Shown: one piece after another, positions 512-50,954 of the stretch | Layout: each line of letters begins with the position of its first letter | Numbering within the stretch: position 1 is the stretch's first letter | Made by a program: the position numbers and the translations under genes | Notes under the pieces: generated by a model | Database searches by the model: none | The model's input: only the letters and a program-made list of their open reading frames with translations | What the model was told of the DNA's origin: nothing | Assembly: GCA_003246335.1 (NCBI GenBank) | Contig: QKAR01000149.1 | Span: forward strand, 1 to 52,171 | DNA: 52,171 bases | Source: Spirochaetales bacterium | Lineage (GTDB): Bacteria > Spirochaetota > Spirochaetia > Treponematales > Treponemataceae | Direction of reading: 5' to 3'

Positions 512-539
512 TTGACAATTTTCCGCAAAGCCGAATACT
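512..539 (+). promoter_or_regulatory. sigma70-type promoter of the CYTH gene, leaderless spacing
   Basis: A perfect -35 box TTGACA (512-517) is followed after 16 bases by AATACT (534-539, 4 of 6 matches to TATAAT). The start codon ATG is only 8 bases further (548), so transcription would begin within a base or two of the start codon. No Shine-Dalgarno sequence lies before the ATG. Confidence 0.6.
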
Positions 540-8016: not shown

Positions 8017-8075
8017 GGGCGGCATTCTACACGATACGGTTTGCATTTTCTACCCGGAGGTAGTATCATGGCGCA

Positions 8076-10013
8076 ATGAAGCTTAATACAAAATTTTCCT
8101 TGACGATTGGGCTTTTCACGATTTTTAGCGCGGGCCTTTCAATTTTCCTGGTTTTTTCGTTCATGGGGGCTCTCTCGCTTCGCGCGTATCAGCTTCAGGC
8201 CAGTTCCGCGATCACCGAATGGCTCAAGCTCCGCGTATATCTTTCGGACCTTTTTTCGATCTCGTTCGACACCGACAACGTCCAGAAAAGTTGGCAACAG
8301 CACCGGACGGACGTAGCGGATAAATTTGAAATTTTCACGGAAACGCGGCAAAACGCCGCTTTTTCAAGCAAGACAAAGGAATTTTATAAGAATATATCGG
8401 GTCTTTTTAACCTCATAGACCCCCTGCTCGGAGACCTCAACGAAACGCTCTCGAACGTCAACAGCGGCGACTACACGAATTCGATCCGGCAAAGCCTGAA
8501 CGCGAGCGGCATCAATTACGTATTACTTTCGCGATCGGACGACAATAGCGGCGAGGTCGCCATCCTTTACTTGCGGCTCAACAGCGCGATTTCGAAAATG
8601 AACACGTATTCCGATGTCTTCCAAAGCGCCCTCGACCGCTTTCAGGACTCGCTCAGCGCCGACGTATCGCGTAAAATATATTGGATCACGATTCAAAGTT
8701 TCGTTCTGCTTGCCATCGGCTCTATACTCATTTTCGTGGTCATAAACCTGATTACCTCGAGGATAACGAAGCGTCTCCGGTTCATCTCGAACGAGACCGA
8801 GCGGCTTTCCTCAAAGGATTTTACCCGCGCCTTTTCCGATCGCGCCACCGACGAAATCGGCCAGCTCACGACCCATCTCGGCGCTACCGTCGCTTCGCTC
8901 AACGGCGTACTTTCCACCATAAAAGACGGCACGGTCGACGCGACCGACATGAGCGAATCGATTAATTTTTCCGCGGGAGAAGTCACCGCGGCGACGACGG
9001 AGATCAACGCGAACGTCGGCTCGATGCAAAAACAGTTCGACAATTTGCGCTCGGCGGTCCGCTCGGCGACCGAGGCACTCGAGTCGATGTCGTCATTCCT
9101 CGTCAATTTCGTCACCGACATAAATGCGCAAAGTTCCTCAATCGGCGAAAGTACGGTGTCCATCGCCGAAATGAACCAATCGATCATGGTCATCAGCAAA
9201 AAAGGGCAGGAAAAGCTGAGCCAAATAACCGAAATAAAAAAAGTCGCCACGGACGGCGAGGAAAAAATCGCGAACACCGAATCGATTCTCACCGGCGTCA
9301 CGACGGAGCTCGACAATGTTTCCTCGTTTATTGAAATGATTAACTCAATCGCCGAGCAAACGAGCATTCTTTCGATGAACGCGGCTATCGAAAGCGCGCA
9401 CGCGGGCGAGGCGGGCAAAGGCTTCGCCGTCGTCGCCGACGAAATCCAGAAGCTCGCGGAATCCACGACGGAAAACGCCCAACTCATCACGACGACCCTT
9501 ACCGACATCGTATCGAACGTCCAAGAAGCCCGGAATTCGAGCCAAATCGCCACGCAGGCGTTCACCGACACGTCGGAGGCGATCGGCGAACTGATCGAGA
9601 CGCTCAACGAAATCGTTTCGGCAATTCATTCCGTCGACGAGAAAAGCGAGCTTTTGGCGAGTCACTCGGCGGAAGTGTCCGAATCTACGAAAAAACTTTC
9701 AGCGCGAACGGGCAAGCTCGACGATTTGCGTAAAACCGCGATCTCGAACATTACGAGCATGGAATCGGTCTTTACCGAGGCAAGCGGCGGTATTAAGGAA
9801 ATTAATATCGGAACGGAAGACATTTTGGCGAAAATTCGACAAATTCACGACCTCAGCTCGCAAAGCAAAGACAAAATGGAAATTTTGCGCTCGATGCTCG
9901 ATGAATTTCAGACGATTGACCCGACTAAACTGGCGGTCGATGAAAATGAGCGGGAAATCGACGAAACGAACGAGGTTGAGGAAGCGCTTGAATCTGCTCC
10001 GGAGGTCGATTAA
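8076..10013 (+). CDS. methyl-accepting chemotaxis protein
   Basis: A 645-residue chemoreceptor. A membrane helix at about residues 8-32, a periplasmic region of roughly 170 residues predicted helical, a second membrane helix (about 200-225), a HAMP linker and a long cytoplasmic coiled coil follow in order. The signalling tip is present: [20 protein letters not shown] then [19 protein letters not shown]. It would bind CheW/CheA and control flagellar motors. GGAGG (8056-8060) is 15 bases from the ATG, too far, but seven from an ATG at 8068 that opens a 3-codon reading frame whose TGA overlaps the MCP ATG. A TAGTAT box (8061-8066) nine bases before the ATG is also seen. The gene ends exactly where the convergent response regulator ends. 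Confidence 0.95.
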
Positions 10014-12570: not shown

Positions 12571-12599
12571 TGGTCAACCACGATTCGAATCTATATACT
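12571..12599 (+). promoter_or_regulatory. azlC promoter, leaderless spacing
   Basis: TGGTCA (12571-12576, 4 of 6), a 17-base spacer and TATACT (12594-12599, 5 of 6) are followed by only nine bases before ATG 12609. No Shine-Dalgarno is present, so the mRNA should have almost no 5' untranslated region. Confidence 0.5.
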
Positions 12600-14100: not shown

Positions 14101-14147
14101 GGTGTACTCCTTGTTCTTCTATCCAATCATTCGCTACTATTTATACC

Positions 14148-14984
14148 ATGCAATATCGGCACATTCCGCGTATAGCGGAGAGGGAATTTTCAATCATTAC
14201 GCCAGGACTAACGGGCGGACTATCGGTAGCTGAGTCGGAAGCGCTGATAAAAGGCGCGACCGAACGCGGCATCACGTCGATCTGGCTCGACGCCGACGCG
14301 GACGCGCAAACTGCGGCGAAAATCCGGAGCTCAGCGGGCGACGTTCGGCGGGTTTCTTTCTTTATTAGTTACCGCGTCGCCGCTCTGGATAGCCTCGCCA
14401 AACGACTCCAGGAAGCCGACGCGACAAGCAAAGACTTTCTCGTCTGCGTTTTTTCCGGCGATGAGGACGAAAGACTCCTCGAGAAAAAAGAGGTATTGCG
14501 CGAAGCGAGAGCGGCGCTGAATCAGGGGAAAATCGCCGGAGTCGGCTTTTGGGCGCCGCCCCGGGCTTCAACCATCGTACCGCTCATCGACGCGTGGGAC
14601 GAATGGGCTTTTTTCGCGACCGACTGCGATTACGTCGCCCTCTCCGACGAATCGCTTGGCATAACCGGAGCCATCGAATACGCGACAGCCGCCGACGTGG
14701 GATTCGTCGCGACAAACGCGCTCGCGAACGGAAGACTGGACGCGGTGCCTCCGGACGTTCACGAGATATTCCGAAACGCGCCCGTTCCGCGCGCCCACGA
14801 CGAATGGGCGCTTCGCGCGCTTTGGGAGCGGCAGGAACTCGTGACGGCGGTTTGGGCGCCGCGCTCGGCCGCGGACGTCGAGCGCAAGGCCGTTTTCGCC
14901 GAGGCGGGGCGTCCGAACAGCCTCCCGTCGCGGGAATTGGCGGCGATCCGCGCGGCGGCGGCGAAACTCAGGGAATCCCGCTAA
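14148..14984 (+). CDS. divergent aldo/keto-reductase-like protein, probably not a classical enzyme
   Basis: A 278-residue cytoplasmic protein. The start MQYRHIPRIAEREFSIIT parallels the MxYRxLGxTGxxVSxxGLG opening of aldo/keto reductases, and KKEVLREARAALNQGKIAGVGFW parallels the family's LEELKKxGKIRAIGVS helix-strand. The catalytic Asp-x4-Tyr region is not recognisable: the corresponding segment ITSIWLDADADAQ has no Tyr. So this looks like a barrel that kept the fold but lost the tetrad. A TACTAT box (14135-14140) seven bases before the ATG and the absence of a Shine-Dalgarno suggest a leaderless mRNA. The family call is tentative. Confidence 0.5.
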   Translation: MQYRHIPRIAEREFSIITPGLTGGLSVAESEALIKGATERGITSIWLDADADAQTAAKIRSSAGDVRRVSFFISYRVAALDSLAKRLQEADATSKDFLVCVFSGDEDERLLEKKEVLREARAALNQGKIAGVGFWAPPRASTIVPLIDAWDEWAFFATDCDYVALSDESLGITGAIEYATAADVGFVATNALANGRLDAVPPDVHEIFRNAPVPRAHDEWALRALWERQELVTAVWAPRSAADVERKAVFAEAGRPNSLPSRELAAIRAAAAKLRESR

Positions 14985-18116: not shown

Positions 18117-19169
18117 ATGAAGAAAGCCCTTCGCGTTTCTGCGATTTTGGCGCTGGGAGCTATCCTGATCCCGGCACTCACGCTCACCGGTTGCAAGAAA
18201 AAGGAAAAGACCCTCTATCTCTACAACTGGACGTATTACACGCCGGATTCGGTCATCGAGAAATTCGAGAAGGAATTCGGGGTCAAGGTCGTCTATGACG
18301 ATTACGCGTCGAACGAGGACATGTACGCCAAGCTCAAGGCGGGCGGATCCGGTTACGACATCGTCATTCCTTCCGGAGACTACGTCTCGATCATGAAAAG
18401 CCAGGACATGCTCGAAAAAATCGACTTGTCCAAAATCCCGAACTCCAAGTATATTCGCCCCGAAACCCTGAAAAAGGCGACGTATGACCCCGCCATGGAA
18501 TACTCGGTCCCCTATTACATGGGAGCGGCGGGCGTCGCGGTCAACACCGAAAAAGTCCCGCAGTTCGAGGAAAGCTGGAACATTTTCGGGCGTAAAGACC
18601 TTGCCGGCCGCATGACCATGATGGACGACATGCGCGAAGTGCTCGGCGACGGACTGGCCTACCTCGGTTATTCCGTCAACACGACGAACCCCGAAGAACT
18701 CGACAAGGCCTATCGCCTGATCAACGACGAATGGAAGCCCAACCTCGTGAAATTCGACGCGGAAGGTTTCGCGAAATCGTTCGCTTCCGGCGAATTCTGG
18801 GTCGTGCAGGGCTACGCTGAGGCGGTTTACGCCGAGGTGACGCCGGAAATGAAGGACAAGGTCGCGTTCTACATCCCGAAGGACGAGGGCGGTCCGATGT
18901 ACATCGATAATTTCTGCATCCCCAAAGGCGCGAAAAACATCGAAGAGGCGCACGAGTTCATCAACTTCTTCCTCCGACCCGAAATTTACGCGGAATTCCT
19001 CGACTCGTTCGGCTTCCCGTCAACCATCCACTCCGAGGCGGGCGCGCTCCAGAAAGTTACCCCGTATTACACGGCGGAGTCGCTTGAAAACTGCGAGCTG
19101 AAGGAAGACCTCGGCGAGCATCTTGAGCAGTACAACGAGATCTGGCAGAAAATTCGTTTTACAGAATAG
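18117..19169 (+). CDS. potD: spermidine/putrescine-binding lipoprotein PotD
   Basis: A 350-residue substrate-binding protein. A lipoprotein signal with lipobox LTGC (Cys25) anchors it at the periplasmic side of a membrane. The mature protein starts LYLYNWTYYTPDSVIEKFEKE, the PotD/PotF polyamine-site Trp-Tyr region, and contains YDIVIPSGDYV and the late IDNFCIPKGAKN segment. AAGGAGG precedes the ATG. Last of the potABCD operon, the same order as known in treponemes. Exact polyamine preference cannot be read. Confidence 0.95.
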   Translation: MKKALRVSAILALGAILIPALTLTGCKKKEKTLYLYNWTYYTPDSVIEKFEKEFGVKVVYDDYASNEDMYAKLKAGGSGYDIVIPSGDYVSIMKSQDMLEKIDLSKIPNSKYIRPETLKKATYDPAMEYSVPYYMGAAGVAVNTEKVPQFEESWNIFGRKDLAGRMTMMDDMREVLGDGLAYLGYSVNTTNPEELDKAYRLINDEWKPNLVKFDAEGFAKSFASGEFWVVQGYAEAVYAEVTPEMKDKVAFYIPKDEGGPMYIDNFCIPKGAKNIEEAHEFINFFLRPEIYAEFLDSFGFPSTIHSEAGALQKVTPYYTAESLENCELKEDLGEHLEQYNEIWQKIRFTE

Positions 19170-19187
19170 TTTACCCTGGGGTATAAT
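19158..19187 (+). promoter_or_regulatory. consensus promoter overlapping the potD end, leaderless spacing
   Basis: TTTACA (19158-19163, 5 of 6) and a perfect TATAAT (19182-19187) are 18 bases apart. The GTG start of the GGDEF-EAL gene is eight bases further, so transcription should begin at or next to the start codon. The -35 box overlaps the last codons of potD. Confidence 0.7.
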
Positions 19188-19195
19188 ATCCCATC

Positions 19196-21016
19196 GTGAT
19201 TGCGCTCGATGGTTTGTACCCCAGCATTCTTGATTCTTTACCCCAAGCACTCGTAATCGTCGAAAGGCGAATCGCCCGGGAAACCGGGCGGTTTGAATTC
19301 CGCGTAGCGTACGCGAACCCCGCTTGGGAACGCATCAGCGGGGCGAGCGTCCACACGATAATCGACGTACCGTTCGAGCGCATGATTTACGGTCGCTCTC
19401 CCATCCCCTGGATACAGATGGTCGAATCGGCGTTTGCCGACGGCAAACCATCCCACCAAACGTATTACAGCGAAATCGTCGAAAAGTGGCTTTCAATTTC
19501 GATTGCCCTCGTCGCGAAAGACCACCTATCCCTCACCGTAATCGACGAAAGCAATCACTACAGCGGTCAGCTGCGCCTCAAGGAACAAAACCTCCGGCTA
19601 TCGTCGCTCTCCGCGGAGCTCGCCGCGTCAAAAAATAACCTTAAAACGAAACTTGAGCACATCGAAAGCCTCAACAATGACCTCGAGAGGCTCGCCTACT
19701 TCGATCAGTTGACGCGACTGCCTAACCGCGCGCGCATTCAAGCGACCATTGCTGACATGATCGCGCAACGAGCCGACACCGACAAACGAATGTCCATCGC
19801 CCTCCTCGACGTGGATAACATGAAAAACGTCAATGATTTTCAGGGCCATGATTCCGGGGACGAATTGCTCGCGCAACTGGGCGAACGGCTGAAATCTTTC
19901 GAAAAGGACGGAATTATCGCGAGCAGGTTCGGCGGCGACGAATTTCTCCTCATCATACCGGACGGCGAAAGCTACGCGCAGACGATAGAGCAGGCGGTTA
20001 TGGCGCAAGAAGAGCTCAACGTCCCGTACGAAATCGGCGGTAGAAAAGTTCGCTCGACCATCTCCATGGGAATCGCCTCCTACCCCGACGACGCGGACAA
20101 TATGCGGGATTTGCTCAAATACGCGGACATGGCCCTCGACGACGCGAAAAAACGCGGTAAAAACGTCATTTCACTCTTTCGCACGGTTATGCAAGATCGG
20201 TTGAATTCCCGCGTCTCGCTCGAAAGCAGGATATTCCTCGCCCTTGAGGACAATCAATTTGAACTGCATTACCAGCCGCAATACGACATTCAAACGAAGC
20301 AAATTCGCGGTTTCGAGGCCTTAGTGCGGTGGTTCGATCCTGAAAAAGGAAATATCAGCCCGGAAGAATTCATTCCGATCGCCGAGGAAAACCGCGCCAT
20401 TCTCCCGCTCGGGGATTGGATTCTCCGTACCGCGTGCGAGACTCTGCGAGAATGGCAAGTCCGCCTCGATTATAACGGCGTCCTGTCGGTAAACGTCTCC
20501 CCGTTGCAGCTGAGAAACGAGGGATTCCTCGAGCGACTCACGAAAATCGTGGAGGACTCGGGAATCGTCCCCGGCTCGCTTGAAATCGAGATCACCGAAG
20601 GGGTGCTCATCGACGATTTCGAGGCTTCCGCTGAACGGCTGCGGGCAATTAAGGATCTCGGCATCGGCATATCGCTCGACGACTTCGGAACGGGCTATTC
20701 CTCGCTCAGCTATCTTCAGCGACTGCCCCTCACCGCGCTGAAAATCGACAAATCCTTCATCTCGAACGTCACGAACGACCGAAGCGTGGAATACGGCATC
20801 ACCGACGCCATCGTGAGCATGACGAATACCCTTGGGCTCGACACGATAGCCGAAGGCGTGGAAACGAGCGAGCAGCTGAGCGTGATGAAGCGGCTGAATT
20901 GCAAAACGGTGCAGGGATTCTTGACGGGGCGGCCCATGCCGAAAAACGAGTGCGAGCGGGCGATTGGCTGCGATTACTCCGTCGCGGAGCCGGCGTCGGG
21001 CCTGTACACGATGTAG
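19196..21016 (+). CDS. PAS-GGDEF-EAL c-di-GMP protein
   Basis: A 606-residue cytoplasmic protein. An N-terminal PAS-like sensor (about residues 10-115), a coiled-coil linker (about 125-165), a GGDEF domain with intact FGGDEF (about 245-250) and an EAL domain with GFEALVRW (about 373), DDFGTGYSSLSYL and ALKIDKSFI follow. Both active sites look intact, so it could make or degrade c-di-GMP, with the PAS ligand or partner deciding. The start is GTG 19196, the only initiator between the promoter and the PAS region; there is no Shine-Dalgarno. Its 3' end overlaps the convergent nuclease gene by 43 bases. Confidence 0.92.
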   Translation: MIALDGLYPSILDSLPQALVIVERRIARETGRFEFRVAYANPAWERISGASVHTIIDVPFERMIYGRSPIPWIQMVESAFADGKPSHQTYYSEIVEKWLSISIALVAKDHLSLTVIDESNHYSGQLRLKEQNLRLSSLSAELAASKNNLKTKLEHIESLNNDLERLAYFDQLTRLPNRARIQATIADMIAQRADTDKRMSIALLDVDNMKNVNDFQGHDSGDELLAQLGERLKSFEKDGIIASRFGGDEFLLIIPDGESYAQTIEQAVMAQEELNVPYEIGGRKVRSTISMGIASYPDDADNMRDLLKYADMALDDAKKRGKNVISLFRTVMQDRLNSRVSLESRIFLALEDNQFELHYQPQYDIQTKQIRGFEALVRWFDPEKGNISPEEFIPIAEENRAILPLGDWILRTACETLREWQVRLDYNGVLSVNVSPLQLRNEGFLERLTKIVEDSGIVPGSLEIEITEGVLIDDFEASAERLRAIKDLGIGISLDDFGTGYSSLSYLQRLPLTALKIDKSFISNVTNDRSVEYGITDAIVSMTNTLGLDTIAEGVETSEQLSVMKRLNCKTVQGFLTGRPMPKNECERAIGCDYSVAEPASGLYTM

Positions 21017-22316: not shown

Positions 22317-22380
22317 TCGTCACAGTATATCGCCCGGCAGGGGAAACGGCAAGGCCGATCGATTCCGATATCAAGCCCGC

Positions 22381-23840: not shown

Positions 23841-23849
23841 ACTATAGCA
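23841..23849 (-). promoter_or_regulatory. extended -10 promoter of rqcH
   Basis: On the minus strand TGC-TATAGT is an extended -10 element (TGn plus hexamer). Eight bases separate it from the ATG at 23832, predicting a leaderless or nearly leaderless mRNA. No good -35 box is seen, as expected for extended -10 promoters. Confidence 0.55.
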
Positions 23850-25847: not shown

Positions 25848-25877
25848 TTGCGTTTCACCTCTCCGCCCTGCTACACT
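25848..25877 (+). promoter_or_regulatory. metF promoter, leaderless spacing
   Basis: TACACT (25872-25877) lies seven bases before the metF ATG, with TTGCGT (25848-25853) 18 bases upstream as a weak -35. The region between shows no Shine-Dalgarno. There is no room for a SAM, cobalamin or THF riboswitch between promoter and start. Confidence 0.5.
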
Positions 25878-37476: not shown

Positions 37477-37932
37477 CTAAAATAATTTTGAGGAGTCGAG
37501 AATGATCGTTACCGGCCCATCGTTAACGATCTCGACGCCCATATGCGCGCCGAAAACCCCCGTGAGAACCCGCCCGCCCGCGTATCGCGCGCGTATCGTC
37601 TCGACGGTTTTTTCGTAGAGAGGCCGCGCGATTTCGCCCGGGGCGGCGCGGTCGTAGCTCGGCCTCCTCCCATTGCGCGCGTCGGCGTAGAGGGTGAATT
37701 GGGAAACGACGAGAATTTCCCCCGAGACATCGGAAAGCGAAACGTTTTTTCGGTCGTCCTCGTCGGAAAAAATGCGCAAATTGACGATTTTATCGGCAAT
37801 ATACTCGACATCCCGCGCTCCATCCCCTTGCGTGACTCCGAGCAGGACCATGAGGCCCGGACCGATCGACGCCACGACGGAGTCATCCACGGACACGGCC
37901 GCCCGCGAAACCCTCTGCAATACGGCTCTCAT
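37477..37932 (-). CDS. dtd: D-aminoacyl-tRNA deacylase
   Basis: A 151-residue enzyme that frees D-amino acids (and glycine mischarged on tRNA-Ala) from tRNA. The active-site SQFTLYAD and the cross-subunit Gly-cisPro region (here NDGPVTIIL) are intact, and the start MRAVLQRVSRAAVSV is canonical. It lies upstream of the broken binding-protein operon on the same strand, near a racemase that would create D-amino acids; the link is by context. A TGG-TATAGT promoter is six bases before the ATG. Confidence 0.96.
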   Translation of the reverse strand: MRAVLQRVSRAAVSVDDSVVASIGPGLMVLLGVTQGDGARDVEYIADKIVNLRIFSDEDDRKNVSLSDVSGEILVVSQFTLYADARNGRRPSYDRAAPGEIARPLYEKTVETIRARYAGGRVLTGVFGAHMGVEIVNDGPVTIILDSSKLF

Positions 37933-37938
37933 TCGTCC

Positions 37939-37947
37939 ACTATACCA
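37939..37947 (-). promoter_or_regulatory. extended -10 promoter of dtd
   Basis: TGG-TATAGT on the minus strand, six bases before ATG 37932. The predicted transcription start is the A of the start codon. No Shine-Dalgarno exists. Confidence 0.6.
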
Positions 37948-37998: not shown

Positions 37999-38028
37999 TT
38001 GCCTATTTTCGCGCGGAATGGCTATTAT
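37999..38028 (+). promoter_or_regulatory. glnA promoter, leaderless spacing
   Basis: TTGCCT (37999-38004, 4 of 6), an 18-base spacer and TATTAT (38023-38028, 5 of 6) end five bases before ATG 38034. There is no ribosome-binding site and no space for a glutamine riboswitch or other leader. Confidence 0.55.
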
Positions 38029-38033
38029 AAGAT

Positions 38034-39365
38034 ATGTACGCCTATACCAAAGACGATATTCTGAAAATGGTCGCCGAAAACGACGTTCGCTTTATCAGGC
38101 TTCAGTTCACCGATATTCTCGGGACGCTGAAAAACGTCGCGATCACCACGACGCAGTTGGAAAAAGCCCTCGACAATAAGTGCATGTTCGACGGCTCATC
38201 TATCGAAGGTTTTGTCCGCATCGAGGAATCCGACATGGTCCTGCATCCCGACCTCGATACGTTTACCCTGTTTCCGTGGAGGCCGACGCCGAACAGCGTC
38301 GCCCGACTCATATGCGACGTATATACGCCCGAGGGAACGCCCTTCGCCGGCTCGCCGCGGCAAATCCTCAAAAACGTGCTCGCCGAGGCGCGCTCGCTCG
38401 GATTTGAATGCGCGGTGGGTCCAGAAATCGAGTTTTTCCTTTTCCATACCGACGCCGAGGGTGGTCCGACGCTCAAGACGCTCGACAACGGCGGATATTT
38501 CGATATGGGCCCGATCGATTTAGGCGAAAACGCGCGACGGGACATCGTTCTTACCCTCGAGGACATGGGATTCGAGGTTGAGGCGTCGCATCACGAATGC
38601 GCGCGCGGCCAGCACGAAATCGACTTTAAGTCCTGCGAGGCCCTCGAGGCCGCGGATCGGATGATCACGTTTAAGCTCGCCGTGAAAACCATCGCGCAGC
38701 GGCACGGACTCCACGCGACCTTCATGCCGAAGCCCATTTACGGCATCGCTGGCTCGGGCATGCACCTGAACCTTTCGCTTTTCAAGGGAAAGGAAAACGC
38801 CTTTTCCGACCCCTCCGACCCGAACGGGCTCTCGGAGACGGCGTATCACTTTATCGCCGGAGTCATGCGCCACGCGCGCGGCATGACGGCGATCGCGAAC
38901 CCCATCGTAAATTCCTATAAACGCCTCGTTCCCGAGCACGAGGCGCCCACGTTCGTCGCGTGGTCGGCTCATAACCGGAACCCGCTGATCCGAATACCGC
39001 TCGCGAAGGACCGAAGCGCGAAAGTCGAGCTTCGCAGTCCCGACCCGTCGGCGAATCCCTATCTCACGCTCGCCCTCACTATCGCGGCTGGTCTCGAGGG
39101 GATAAAGGAAAAGCTCCTGCCGCCGACGCCGATCGACGGGGACATAGCCGCGATGAGCGACGCGCAAAGGAAAAAAGCCCGCGTCGAAAGCCTCCCGATC
39201 GACTTAAAGGACGCCATCGGCGCGATGAAAAAAGACCCGCTCATCCGCTCCGTGCTCGGCGACCACGTGTTCGACAAGTACGTCGAGTCGAAAGAACGCG
39301 AGTGGGAAGCGTACAAAAACCGCGTGTCAAACTGGGAAATTGAGCAGTATTTATCGAAATATTGA
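38034..39365 (+). CDS. glnA: glutamine synthetase, type I
   Basis: A 443-residue enzyme that makes glutamine from glutamate, ammonia and ATP. FDGSSIEGFVRIEESDM, the GSGMHLNLSL His/Glu site, NSYKRLVPEHEAPTF and the NRNPLIRIP segment are all present. The length and the lack of a NLYDLP adenylylation loop near the C-terminus fit the GSI-alpha type (Gram-positive, archaeal and spirochaetal), controlled by feedback or regulators rather than adenylylation. A LuxR gene follows after 28 bases. Confidence 0.97.
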   Translation: MYAYTKDDILKMVAENDVRFIRLQFTDILGTLKNVAITTTQLEKALDNKCMFDGSSIEGFVRIEESDMVLHPDLDTFTLFPWRPTPNSVARLICDVYTPEGTPFAGSPRQILKNVLAEARSLGFECAVGPEIEFFLFHTDAEGGPTLKTLDNGGYFDMGPIDLGENARRDIVLTLEDMGFEVEASHHECARGQHEIDFKSCEALEAADRMITFKLAVKTIAQRHGLHATFMPKPIYGIAGSGMHLNLSLFKGKENAFSDPSDPNGLSETAYHFIAGVMRHARGMTAIANPIVNSYKRLVPEHEAPTFVAWSAHNRNPLIRIPLAKDRSAKVELRSPDPSANPYLTLALTIAAGLEGIKEKLLPPTPIDGDIAAMSDAQRKKARVESLPIDLKDAIGAMKKDPLIRSVLGDHVFDKYVESKEREWEAYKNRVSNWEIEQYLSKY

Positions 39366-40840: not shown

Positions 40841-41710
40841 TTACTCAGGAAGCCGCCCCGACCAAAAATCGCAGAGACGCCGGGCGCGGGGTGTCATGAG
40901 CGGAAGCGCGATTTCGTACGGAATGACGGCGGACTGCGGTCCCATCGCGTACGGCGCTATTTCATACTCGTTCCACGAAAGCTCGACCCCTTCGGGAAGC
41001 AAGGCGATGTTCACTGGGGCCGTAAGTTTCGCGTCGAAAAACATGCCGGTTGAGTCAAGGCTTTCTCCCCGCGGGATATCCTCCCGCTCTCGAAGAACGT
41101 CCTCCGCCGCGGAGAGCGCTTGGTCCCGCGCGTCGGGCGAAAACACGTCGTCGAAAGAAACTCTCTCGCCCCGCTCCGCGTCAACGACGAAGTACGAAGC
41201 CTGATGCCCCGGATGCGCGCCGCCGAGATATTCCTCGCGAAAAAAAGCGAAGGTCGTCACGAGGGGATTGGAACAAACGACGGAAGTTTCGATTGAGAGG
41301 TAAAACCCGAGCATTCCGGAATGGGAGAATTCATCTCCCTCGTCCGAGTCGTCTTCTTCGACGGCGCGAAAAAGATCCGCGCCGTCGCCGCGATATCGCT
41401 CGGTGAATTCTGCAAGTTCCGCGCGCGCGAATTCCTCCGCCCCGAGACCGCCGTACAAACACGCGCGCGCGGCATCCCGAAGTGGGATCGGGCACTCGAC
41501 CCCACCGTCAATCAACCGCGCGGTAAATTCCGCGCGCGGACCCTCCCCCCGATCGGGGAAAAGGGGAATTTCCGCGTCGACGGAAAGCGGCGCAAAATAA
41601 ACCTCTGGGGAAACGGCAGTCGCCGGCGGCGCGCCTTCGGCGAGTGCGTACGGTAAGGCCGAAAGAGAGAAAGCCGCCAACGATACTGCGATTAACGCGC
41701 GTGATTTCAC
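40841..41710 (-). CDS. secreted DUF3298/RsiV-like protein
   Basis: A 289-residue exported protein: signal peptide ending near ALPYALA, then a DUF4163/DUF3298-type fold recognised from FAFFREEYLGGAHPGHQASY, SFDDVF and the late LSWNEYEIAPYAMGPQSAVI segment, as in the extracellular part of RsiV-type lysozyme sensors and related secreted proteins. There is no anti-sigma N-terminal domain here, so it is the stand-alone form of unknown role. It follows the membrane protein gene by 26 bases. Confidence 0.78.
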   Translation of the reverse strand: MKSRALIAVSLAAFSLSALPYALAEGAPPATAVSPEVYFAPLSVDAEIPLFPDRGEGPRAEFTARLIDGGVECPIPLRDAARACLYGGLGAEEFARAELAEFTERYRGDGADLFRAVEEDDSDEGDEFSHSGMLGFYLSIETSVVCSNPLVTTFAFFREEYLGGAHPGHQASYFVVDAERGERVSFDDVFSPDARDQALSAAEDVLREREDIPRGESLDSTGMFFDAKLTAPVNIALLPEGVELSWNEYEIAPYAMGPQSAVIPYEIALPLMTPRARRLCDFWSGRLPE

Positions 41711-41736
41711 GGCGATCAGTATAGCGCTAAACCCGG

Positions 41737-50945: not shown

Positions 50946-50954
50946 ACTATAGCA
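50946..50954 (-). promoter_or_regulatory. extended -10 promoter of the small export gene
   Basis: TGC-TATAGT on the minus strand, identical to the rqcH promoter core. It lies nine bases before ATG 50936, so the transcript should start two to three bases before the start codon. Confidence 0.55.

Follow-up and report, generated by a model that had tools for sequence, protein, structure and literature searches.

In Leptospira interrogans, differential RNA sequencing (dRNA-seq) was reported in 2017 to have identified ~440 mRNAs with a leader of <10 nt, about half of them <2 nt, in an organism in which most genes have a Shine-Dalgarno (SD) site (PMC5243855). A paper on the ribosome of Borrelia burgdorferi describes leaderless mRNAs as frequent in that species (PMC10618245). 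Leaderless genes with the hexamer TANNNT ~12 bp upstream of the start codon and no SD site were surveyed in 953 bacterial genomes by Zheng et al. in 2011, and 6 of 18 Spirochaetes genomes were scored as positive, with 1.8–6.9% of genes (PMC3160421). The same promoter-start geometry is commoner in Deinococcus-Thermus (35.9–46.1% of genes) and in Actinobacteria (2.3–29.8%), according to that survey (PMC3160421). Here, the relation between promoter and start codon was analyzed in an uncultured member of the Treponemataceae (assembly GCA_003246335.1), beginning with a contig of 52,171 nucleotides (QKAR01000149.1, hereafter the window) in which the −10 box of a gene for a GGDEF-EAL protein, and those of ten other genes, end 5–9 bases before the start codon. 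Many transcript-leading genes of this genome very probably possess housekeeping-sigma promoters placed to give leaderless or near-leaderless mRNAs for which SD sites would not be used.

Results

Promoter position in a genome sample

The genome is a metagenome-assembled genome of 3.05 Mb in 163 contigs and is 91% complete. Gene-anchored statistics were obtained from 60 pieces that include the window (823,145 bases, 27% of the genome, GC content 0.58), using a home-made gene caller that scores codon usage and start-codon type and ignores upstream signals. Usable upstream sequence was available for 685 genes: 407 classed as transcript-leading, having either a divergent neighbor or at least 25 bp to the neighbor on the same strand, and 278 classed as internal.

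Upstream of the leading genes, TANNNT was observed 22, 32, and 13 times at −13, −12, and −11, respectively, compared with a background mean of 9.5 and a maximum of 17 between −50 and −18 (p=4e-9 at −12). The earlier note on this DNA had proposed to look for a −10 peak near −12 across the genome, and such a peak is present in the 27% analyzed. A hexamer at −12 to −7 occupies the textbook place of a −10 box when the first base of the start codon is +1. TANNNT-led (TA-led) genes comprised 65 of the 407 leading genes but only 6 of the 278 internal genes. SD sites and these hexamers were nearly mutually exclusive, SD sites being found before 3 of the 65 TA-led genes versus 180 of the 342 other leading genes; an SD 4-mer preceded a fraction of 0.56 of the internal genes. 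A TTGACA-like −35 element (at least 4/6 matches, 16–18 bp spacing) accompanied the hexamer in 27 of 65 TA-led genes; leading genes lacking TANNNT there had such an element in the corresponding position in 46 of 342 cases, and TANNNT located elsewhere (−30 to −17) was accompanied by one in 24 of 108. The TGn extension was likewise enriched (11 of 65 versus 17 of 342), and among the best full promoters (at least 9/12 matches) 43 of 121 lay at −16 to −10, compared with 7.4 in a 7-bp bin farther from the start.

When any −10 match of at least 4/6 was accepted, 98 of the 407 leading genes had a box at a gap of 5–9 bases to the start codon, whereas seven control ranges gave 46, 68, 46, 54, 51, 42, and 37; among internal genes the count was 11 of 278. 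Boxes near the start are thus present beyond chance, and individually about half of such hits are background. The excess of ~49 genes amounts to 12% of leading genes and ~7% of all 685. Because the excess was divided by the exact-start rate of the caller, the corrected estimate is higher, at ~17–18% of leading genes and ~10% of all genes. That A+T-rich intergenic DNA yields hexamers everywhere, from which the close ones were simply picked by eye, would fit the background share of the gap 5–9 hits (98 of 407 against a control mean of 49) and also a generic search for promoters over 10 kb of the window, which returned 5 sites versus 4.0 in shuffled sequence and so was at chance level. Such an origin is nevertheless extremely improbable given the significance of the peak at −12, the lack of any excess at this position in mostly clostridial and in Escherichia coli DNA analyzed with the same script, and the conservation of boxes before orthologs of rqcH, glnA, and the GGDEF-EAL gene (both sets of results below).

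Controls and a gene-call-free test

In a mostly clostridial set (75 loci, 1.02 Mb), 42 TANNNT were counted at −15 to −11 compared with 90 expected from the upstream sequence, with no peak, and 200 kb of E. coli processed with the same scripts gave 6 compared with 11.8, again with no peak. Plasmid 3 of Deinococcus deserti (200 kb) served as positive control and gave 11 TANNNT versus 4.3 expected (p=0.005), with 0 full promoters at the expected place versus 0.6 per bin; when the annotated starts of a single 50-kb piece were used, 4 of 39 D. deserti genes were positive versus 0.8 expected. This control is weak: either the method underestimates the trait or the sample is small.

A pattern independent of gene calls was also used, namely TTGAC, 17–19 bases, TANNNT, and then ATG, with matches at a gap of 5–8 compared with the mean per four gaps over 9–60. 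The sample of this genome gave 17 matches versus 5.2 (p=8e-5, 3.3-fold), and eight other spirochaete samples pooled (G008, G014, G025, G028, G038, G040, G045, and G048) gave 31 versus 10.8 (p=1.5e-6, 2.9-fold). No excess was seen in the mostly clostridial set (11 versus 15.2, 0.7-fold), and the 200 kb of E. coli contained zero matches at any gap, which makes that comparison uninformative. Across the whole genome, with gaps of 2–32 allowed, the pattern was matched 180 times versus 15 for the pattern read backwards, some of the matches being a single promoter counted with two ATGs. Among the first 100 of the 180, the distribution peaked at gap 7 (15 matches), followed by gap 6 (8). SD 4-mers were absent from all leaders at gaps 2–9, and the leaders that held one mostly had a gap of at least 15. 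The pattern TGNTATAATN{4,8}ATG gave only 5 matches in the whole genome versus 1 read backwards.

These data bear on a further alternative, in which the hexamers are unstructured or S1-binding A+T-rich sequence and transcription starts further upstream. A near-start A+T bias is described in several phyla and cannot simply be read as promoters, according to a published survey (PMC5397173). By contrast, the peak is exact in position, has a −35 partner at 16–18 bp and a TGn extension, and is tied to TTGAC where no gene calls are involved; before rqcH the hexamer is conserved amid divergent surroundings. An explanation by base composition is accordingly regarded as highly improbable, and promoters placed at the start codon remain the favored explanation.

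Conservation of near-start boxes in relatives

Orthologs were compared across 12 genomes of the genus, this one included. Near-full-length alignments to the GGDEF-EAL protein (49–55% identity) were obtained in 7 of the 12, again including this genome; an additional N-terminal GGDEF-EAL fragment in G007 is outside this count. The promoter in the window has an 18-bp spacer and 11 of 12 consensus matches, and ranked first among the five promoter-like sites of the 10-kb scan; what counts for this box is its position, not the number of hits in the scan. TATAAT or TATACT precedes the gene in all seven orthologous loci, and TTTAC(A/C) recurs as −35 element in six of the seven. The gap from box to start is 8 in this genome and 10–13 in the six orthologs, whose ATG stands one codon after the GTG used here in five cases and two codons after it in L228. 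The gene in the window begins GTG ATT (19196–19201), and the ATT aligns with the ATG of those five orthologs; its start could be the GTG or the rare ATT. Within 19158–19169, the −35 element overlaps the final codons (RFTE-stop) of the upstream solute-binding-protein gene, such that promoter and protein end share bases.

For rqcH, TATAAT, TATAGT, or TATACT was found 6–10 bases before the ATG in 12 of 12 genus genomes. The other upstream bases diverge while the hexamer stays, and L255 has GGAG in addition. A near box also precedes glnA in five of five loci, comprising this genome and the four nearest glnA loci, L001–L004 (75–77% identity), at gaps of 3–5; a further 20 homologs of the order mostly have SD-like leaders as judged by eye. 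For metF, a near box without an SD site was present in 5 of the 12 genomes (CATACT in two of them), and the other seven have a purine-rich, SD-like stretch. Of these, L300 combines a weak near hexamer with an SD site; L297, L301, L303, L304, and L305 have the SD site only; and L302 has an AAGGGG stretch, which is outside the SD list used. To judge from these upstream sequences, metF switches between a near-box state and an SD state among close species. In three of the 12 close genomes (L295–L306), namely L300, L301, and L304, a TACACT lies at a greater distance, ending 23, 25, and 22 bases upstream of the start codon, respectively. Overall, the gaps between box and start in orthologs ranged from 3 to 13 bases.

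The one genus member with 16S genes does not support the idea that SD sites fell out of use in general because the anti-SD sequence was lost. The anti-SD CACCTCCTT is present in all four 16S copies of the genus member G008, with the core CCUCC kept, and SD 4-mers precede over half of the internal genes in the sample. No 16S genes were found in this genome or in the 10 other genus members.

Near-start boxes of the window

The boxes of the window are collected in Table 1. All 11 −10 boxes listed in the earlier note were found at the spacings it had claimed, and its statement that these genes do not have SD sites was borne out by eye, AGGA, GGAG, and GAGG being absent before 11 of 11 starts. The DUF3298 gene is a twelfth case outside that list.

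Table 1. Promoter elements and associated genes in the window. Gap, number of bases between the −10 box and the start codon.
Feature	Coordinates	Strand	Details
GGDEF-EAL −35 box TTTACA	19158–19163	+	within the 3' end of the upstream solute-binding-protein gene (18117–19169)
GGDEF-EAL −10 box TATAAT	19182–19187	+	gap 8 to GTG 19196
GGDEF-EAL gene	19196–21016	+	GTG start, no SD site; Pfam EAL 1.2e-70, GGDEF 1.3e-37
CYTH −10 box AATACT	534–539	+	gap 8 to ATG 548; −35 box TTGACA at 512–517
RNA methyltransferase −10 box TAGAAT	8024–8029	−	gap 7 to ATG 8016; UPF0020 methyltransferase domain
azlC −10 box TATACT	12594–12599	+	gap 9 to ATG 12609; AzlC domain (Pfam)
Gene 14148–14984 −10 box TACTAT	14135–14140	+	gap 7; labeled AKR-like in the earlier note
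M15 peptidase −10 box TATACT	22324–22329	−	gap 7 to ATG 22316; Peptidase_M15_4
rqcH −10 box TATAGT	23841–23846	−	gap 8 to ATG 23832; NFACT domain
metF −10 box TACACT	25872–25877	+	gap 7 to ATG 25885; MTHFR domain
dtd −10 box TATAGT	37939–37944	−	gap 6 to ATG 37932; Tyr_Deacylase; gene 37477–37932
glnA −10 box TATTAT	38023–38028	+	gap 5 to ATG 38034
DUF3298 gene −10 box TATACT	41718–41723	−	gap 7 to GTG 41710
Small export gene −10 box TATAGT	50946–50951	−	gap 9 to ATG 50936; Sm_multidrug_ex

The gene at 548–1357 is presumed to encode a CYTH protein, a label of the earlier note, and the gene at 38034 is taken to be glnA, as recognized both here and in that note. A Pfam search of gene 14148–14984 gave zero matches. 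The gaps for the CYTH, RNA methyltransferase, and azlC genes require starts at 548, 8016, and 12609, which differ from the starts of the longest open reading frames (ORFs). The longest ORF of the CYTH gene (548–1357) begins at TTG 359; ATG 548 is favored by both the promoter and the N-terminal sequence MTEIEIKA.

With these three starts set as in the earlier note, 14 of 31 leading genes in the window had a −10 match of at least 4/6 at a gap of 5–9, compared with 8, 6, 5, 5, 3, 4, and 3 in seven control ranges; with the starts of the caller, the count was 13 of 30, compared with 10, 6, 3, 4, 4, 4, and 1. The 14 genes are the 11 listed, that at 41710, and two doubtful cases at 8076 (clear GGAGG) and 37009 (TTG start). 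Single weak boxes, such as those of the RNA methyltransferase gene and gene 14148–14984, could still be due to chance.

Distribution among spirochaetes

Among the eight other spirochaete samples, the gene-anchored test gave a TANNNT excess in G014, G038, and G040 (p=0.003, 0.007, and 0.0001, respectively) and a weak result in G008 (p=0.12) and G028 (p=0.09). The promoter-ATG pattern was also run on 392 genomes of the phylum. Matches at the near gap (5–8) outnumbered those at a far gap (20–23) in 204 of the 214 genomes of the same class that were tallied, with 2 equal and 8 below; this genome gave 63 near and 29 far matches, whereas the reversed pattern matched once in each range. Among the untallied 178 rows of other classes, near matches were fewer than far matches in several (G153, G161, G213, G223, and G230). 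The near/far ratio was dropped as evidence, since the mostly clostridial control likewise gave 11 near and 6 far matches in a local count; because the far range was badly chosen in this respect, the phylum screen is a lead only. Three genomes (G039, G272, and G286) gave 204–239 near-gap matches versus the 63 found here, and are candidates for a high content of leaderless genes.

Discussion

The position of the promoters, their −35 partners, the lack of SD sites, conservation, and the switching of metF together form a body of sequence-based support for promoters placed to give mRNAs that are most likely leaderless or have leaders of 1–7 nt. A housekeeping-sigma promoter consisting of a −35 box, 16–18 bp, and a −10 box would put the start codon at or just past the transcription start. 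RNA polymerase would initiate ~6–8 nt past the −10 box, leaving leaders of 0 to ~7 nt, and the ribosome would then recognize the 5'-terminal start codon via a 70S or an IF2/fMet-tRNA route, as is known for leaderless mRNAs elsewhere. Leaderless mRNAs are resistant to kasugamycin. Translation of leaderless mRNAs is described as being spared by some antibiotics (PMC9581028). SD pairing would be impossible on such mRNAs, and the other genes, chiefly operon-internal ones, would rely on SD sites or stop-start overlaps.

Several results weigh against this account. In the genus member G008, only 12 TANNNT were counted versus 8.2 expected, with 1 full promoter at −16 to −10 versus 2.1 per bin, and the gene-anchored TANNNT excess was absent in G025, G045, and G048. 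GGDEF-EAL orthologs were counted in only 7 of 12 genus genomes; in each of the remaining five, the best match begins at residue 128 or later and was left out. The genus offers too few homologs for a footprint of two genes of the window: a search of the 11 genus relatives gave no match to dtd, and the small export gene had one weak match in the genus. The search with dtd gave a match in 25 of 59 genomes, this one included, and by eye a near box was seen in only 1 of 24 dtd homologs of other genera (L163, TAAAAT, gap 6). Where starts were strictly unambiguous, 7 of 33 leading genes were TA-led versus 3 at a control position, although the 33 genes that qualify out of 407 are too few. Finally, the caller was exact for only 29 of 43 annotated starts in E. 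coli and 23 of 33 in D. deserti (one 50-kb piece each), or ~67–70%.

This error rate, together with the GGDEF-EAL orthologs, whose starts lie one or two codons past the GTG position, would fit an explanation in which starts are misplaced and the true ones lie downstream, behind normal SD sites and ordinary leaders. However, in-frame ATG or GTG codons further downstream that carry an SD site are rare in TA-led genes (2 of 62), as they are in SD-led genes (5 of 180), and unlike the genes that have neither signal (26 of 162); given this rarity, TA-led starts look as sound as SD-led ones. In addition, orthologs align from residue 1 for rqcH (12 of 12), metF (12 of 12), and glnA (L001–L004). Misplacement is thus considered highly improbable, and promoters set at or just before the true start codon are preferred.

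The earlier note had proposed leaderless transcription with mRNAs beginning at the start codon, as something unusual for this type of organism. Leaderless or near-leaderless mRNAs remain the best reading of the data. Transcription need not begin exactly at the start codon, as ortholog gaps range from 3 to 13 with the six GGDEF-EAL orthologs at 10–13, and gaps of up to 13 suggest leaders of up to ~7 nt. Archaeal mRNAs are termed leaderless when the leader is <8 nt (PMC10783764), and the predicted leaders of 0 to ~7 nt would fall within that definition. The suggestion that the trait is unusual does not hold, given the reports for Leptospira, Borrelia, and 6 of 18 Spirochaetes genomes (PMC5243855, PMC10618245, PMC3160421). 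The Leptospira 5' ends were mapped, in a different branch of the same phylum, whereas those proposed here are deduced from sequence (PMC5243855); the leaderless transcripts of Borrelia likewise belong to the phylum of this genome (PMC10618245). The TANNNT peak lies at the place reported for the TA-led genes of the 2011 survey, and the proportion of ~7% uncorrected or ~10% corrected, an estimate by another method, compares with its 1.8–6.9% for Spirochaetes (PMC3160421). No report of leaderless mRNAs on this spirochaete branch was found in the open-licence literature. The result would therefore add a new lineage to an already known phenomenon, perhaps one somewhat richer in such genes than the 2011 figures.

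rqcH is a ribosome-rescue gene. We tentatively entertain, as a possibility that is on balance doubtful, that promoters with ultra-short leaders are an old, class-wide spirochaete trait, kept by some genes (rqcH, in all 12 genomes of the genus) and flipped by others between near-leaderless and SD leaders (metF, among close species), and that the fixed state of rqcH may allow its translation when 30S-dependent initiation fails.

In summary, these data define a testable mode of gene expression for an uncultured spirochaete lineage and counter the view of leaderless mRNAs as alien to the spirochaete phylum. Near-start promoters may aid the placement of gene starts, as for the CYTH, azlC, and RNA methyltransferase genes, whose starts differ from those of the longest ORFs, and the metF set would provide a natural experiment on the joint gain and loss of a leader and an SD site.

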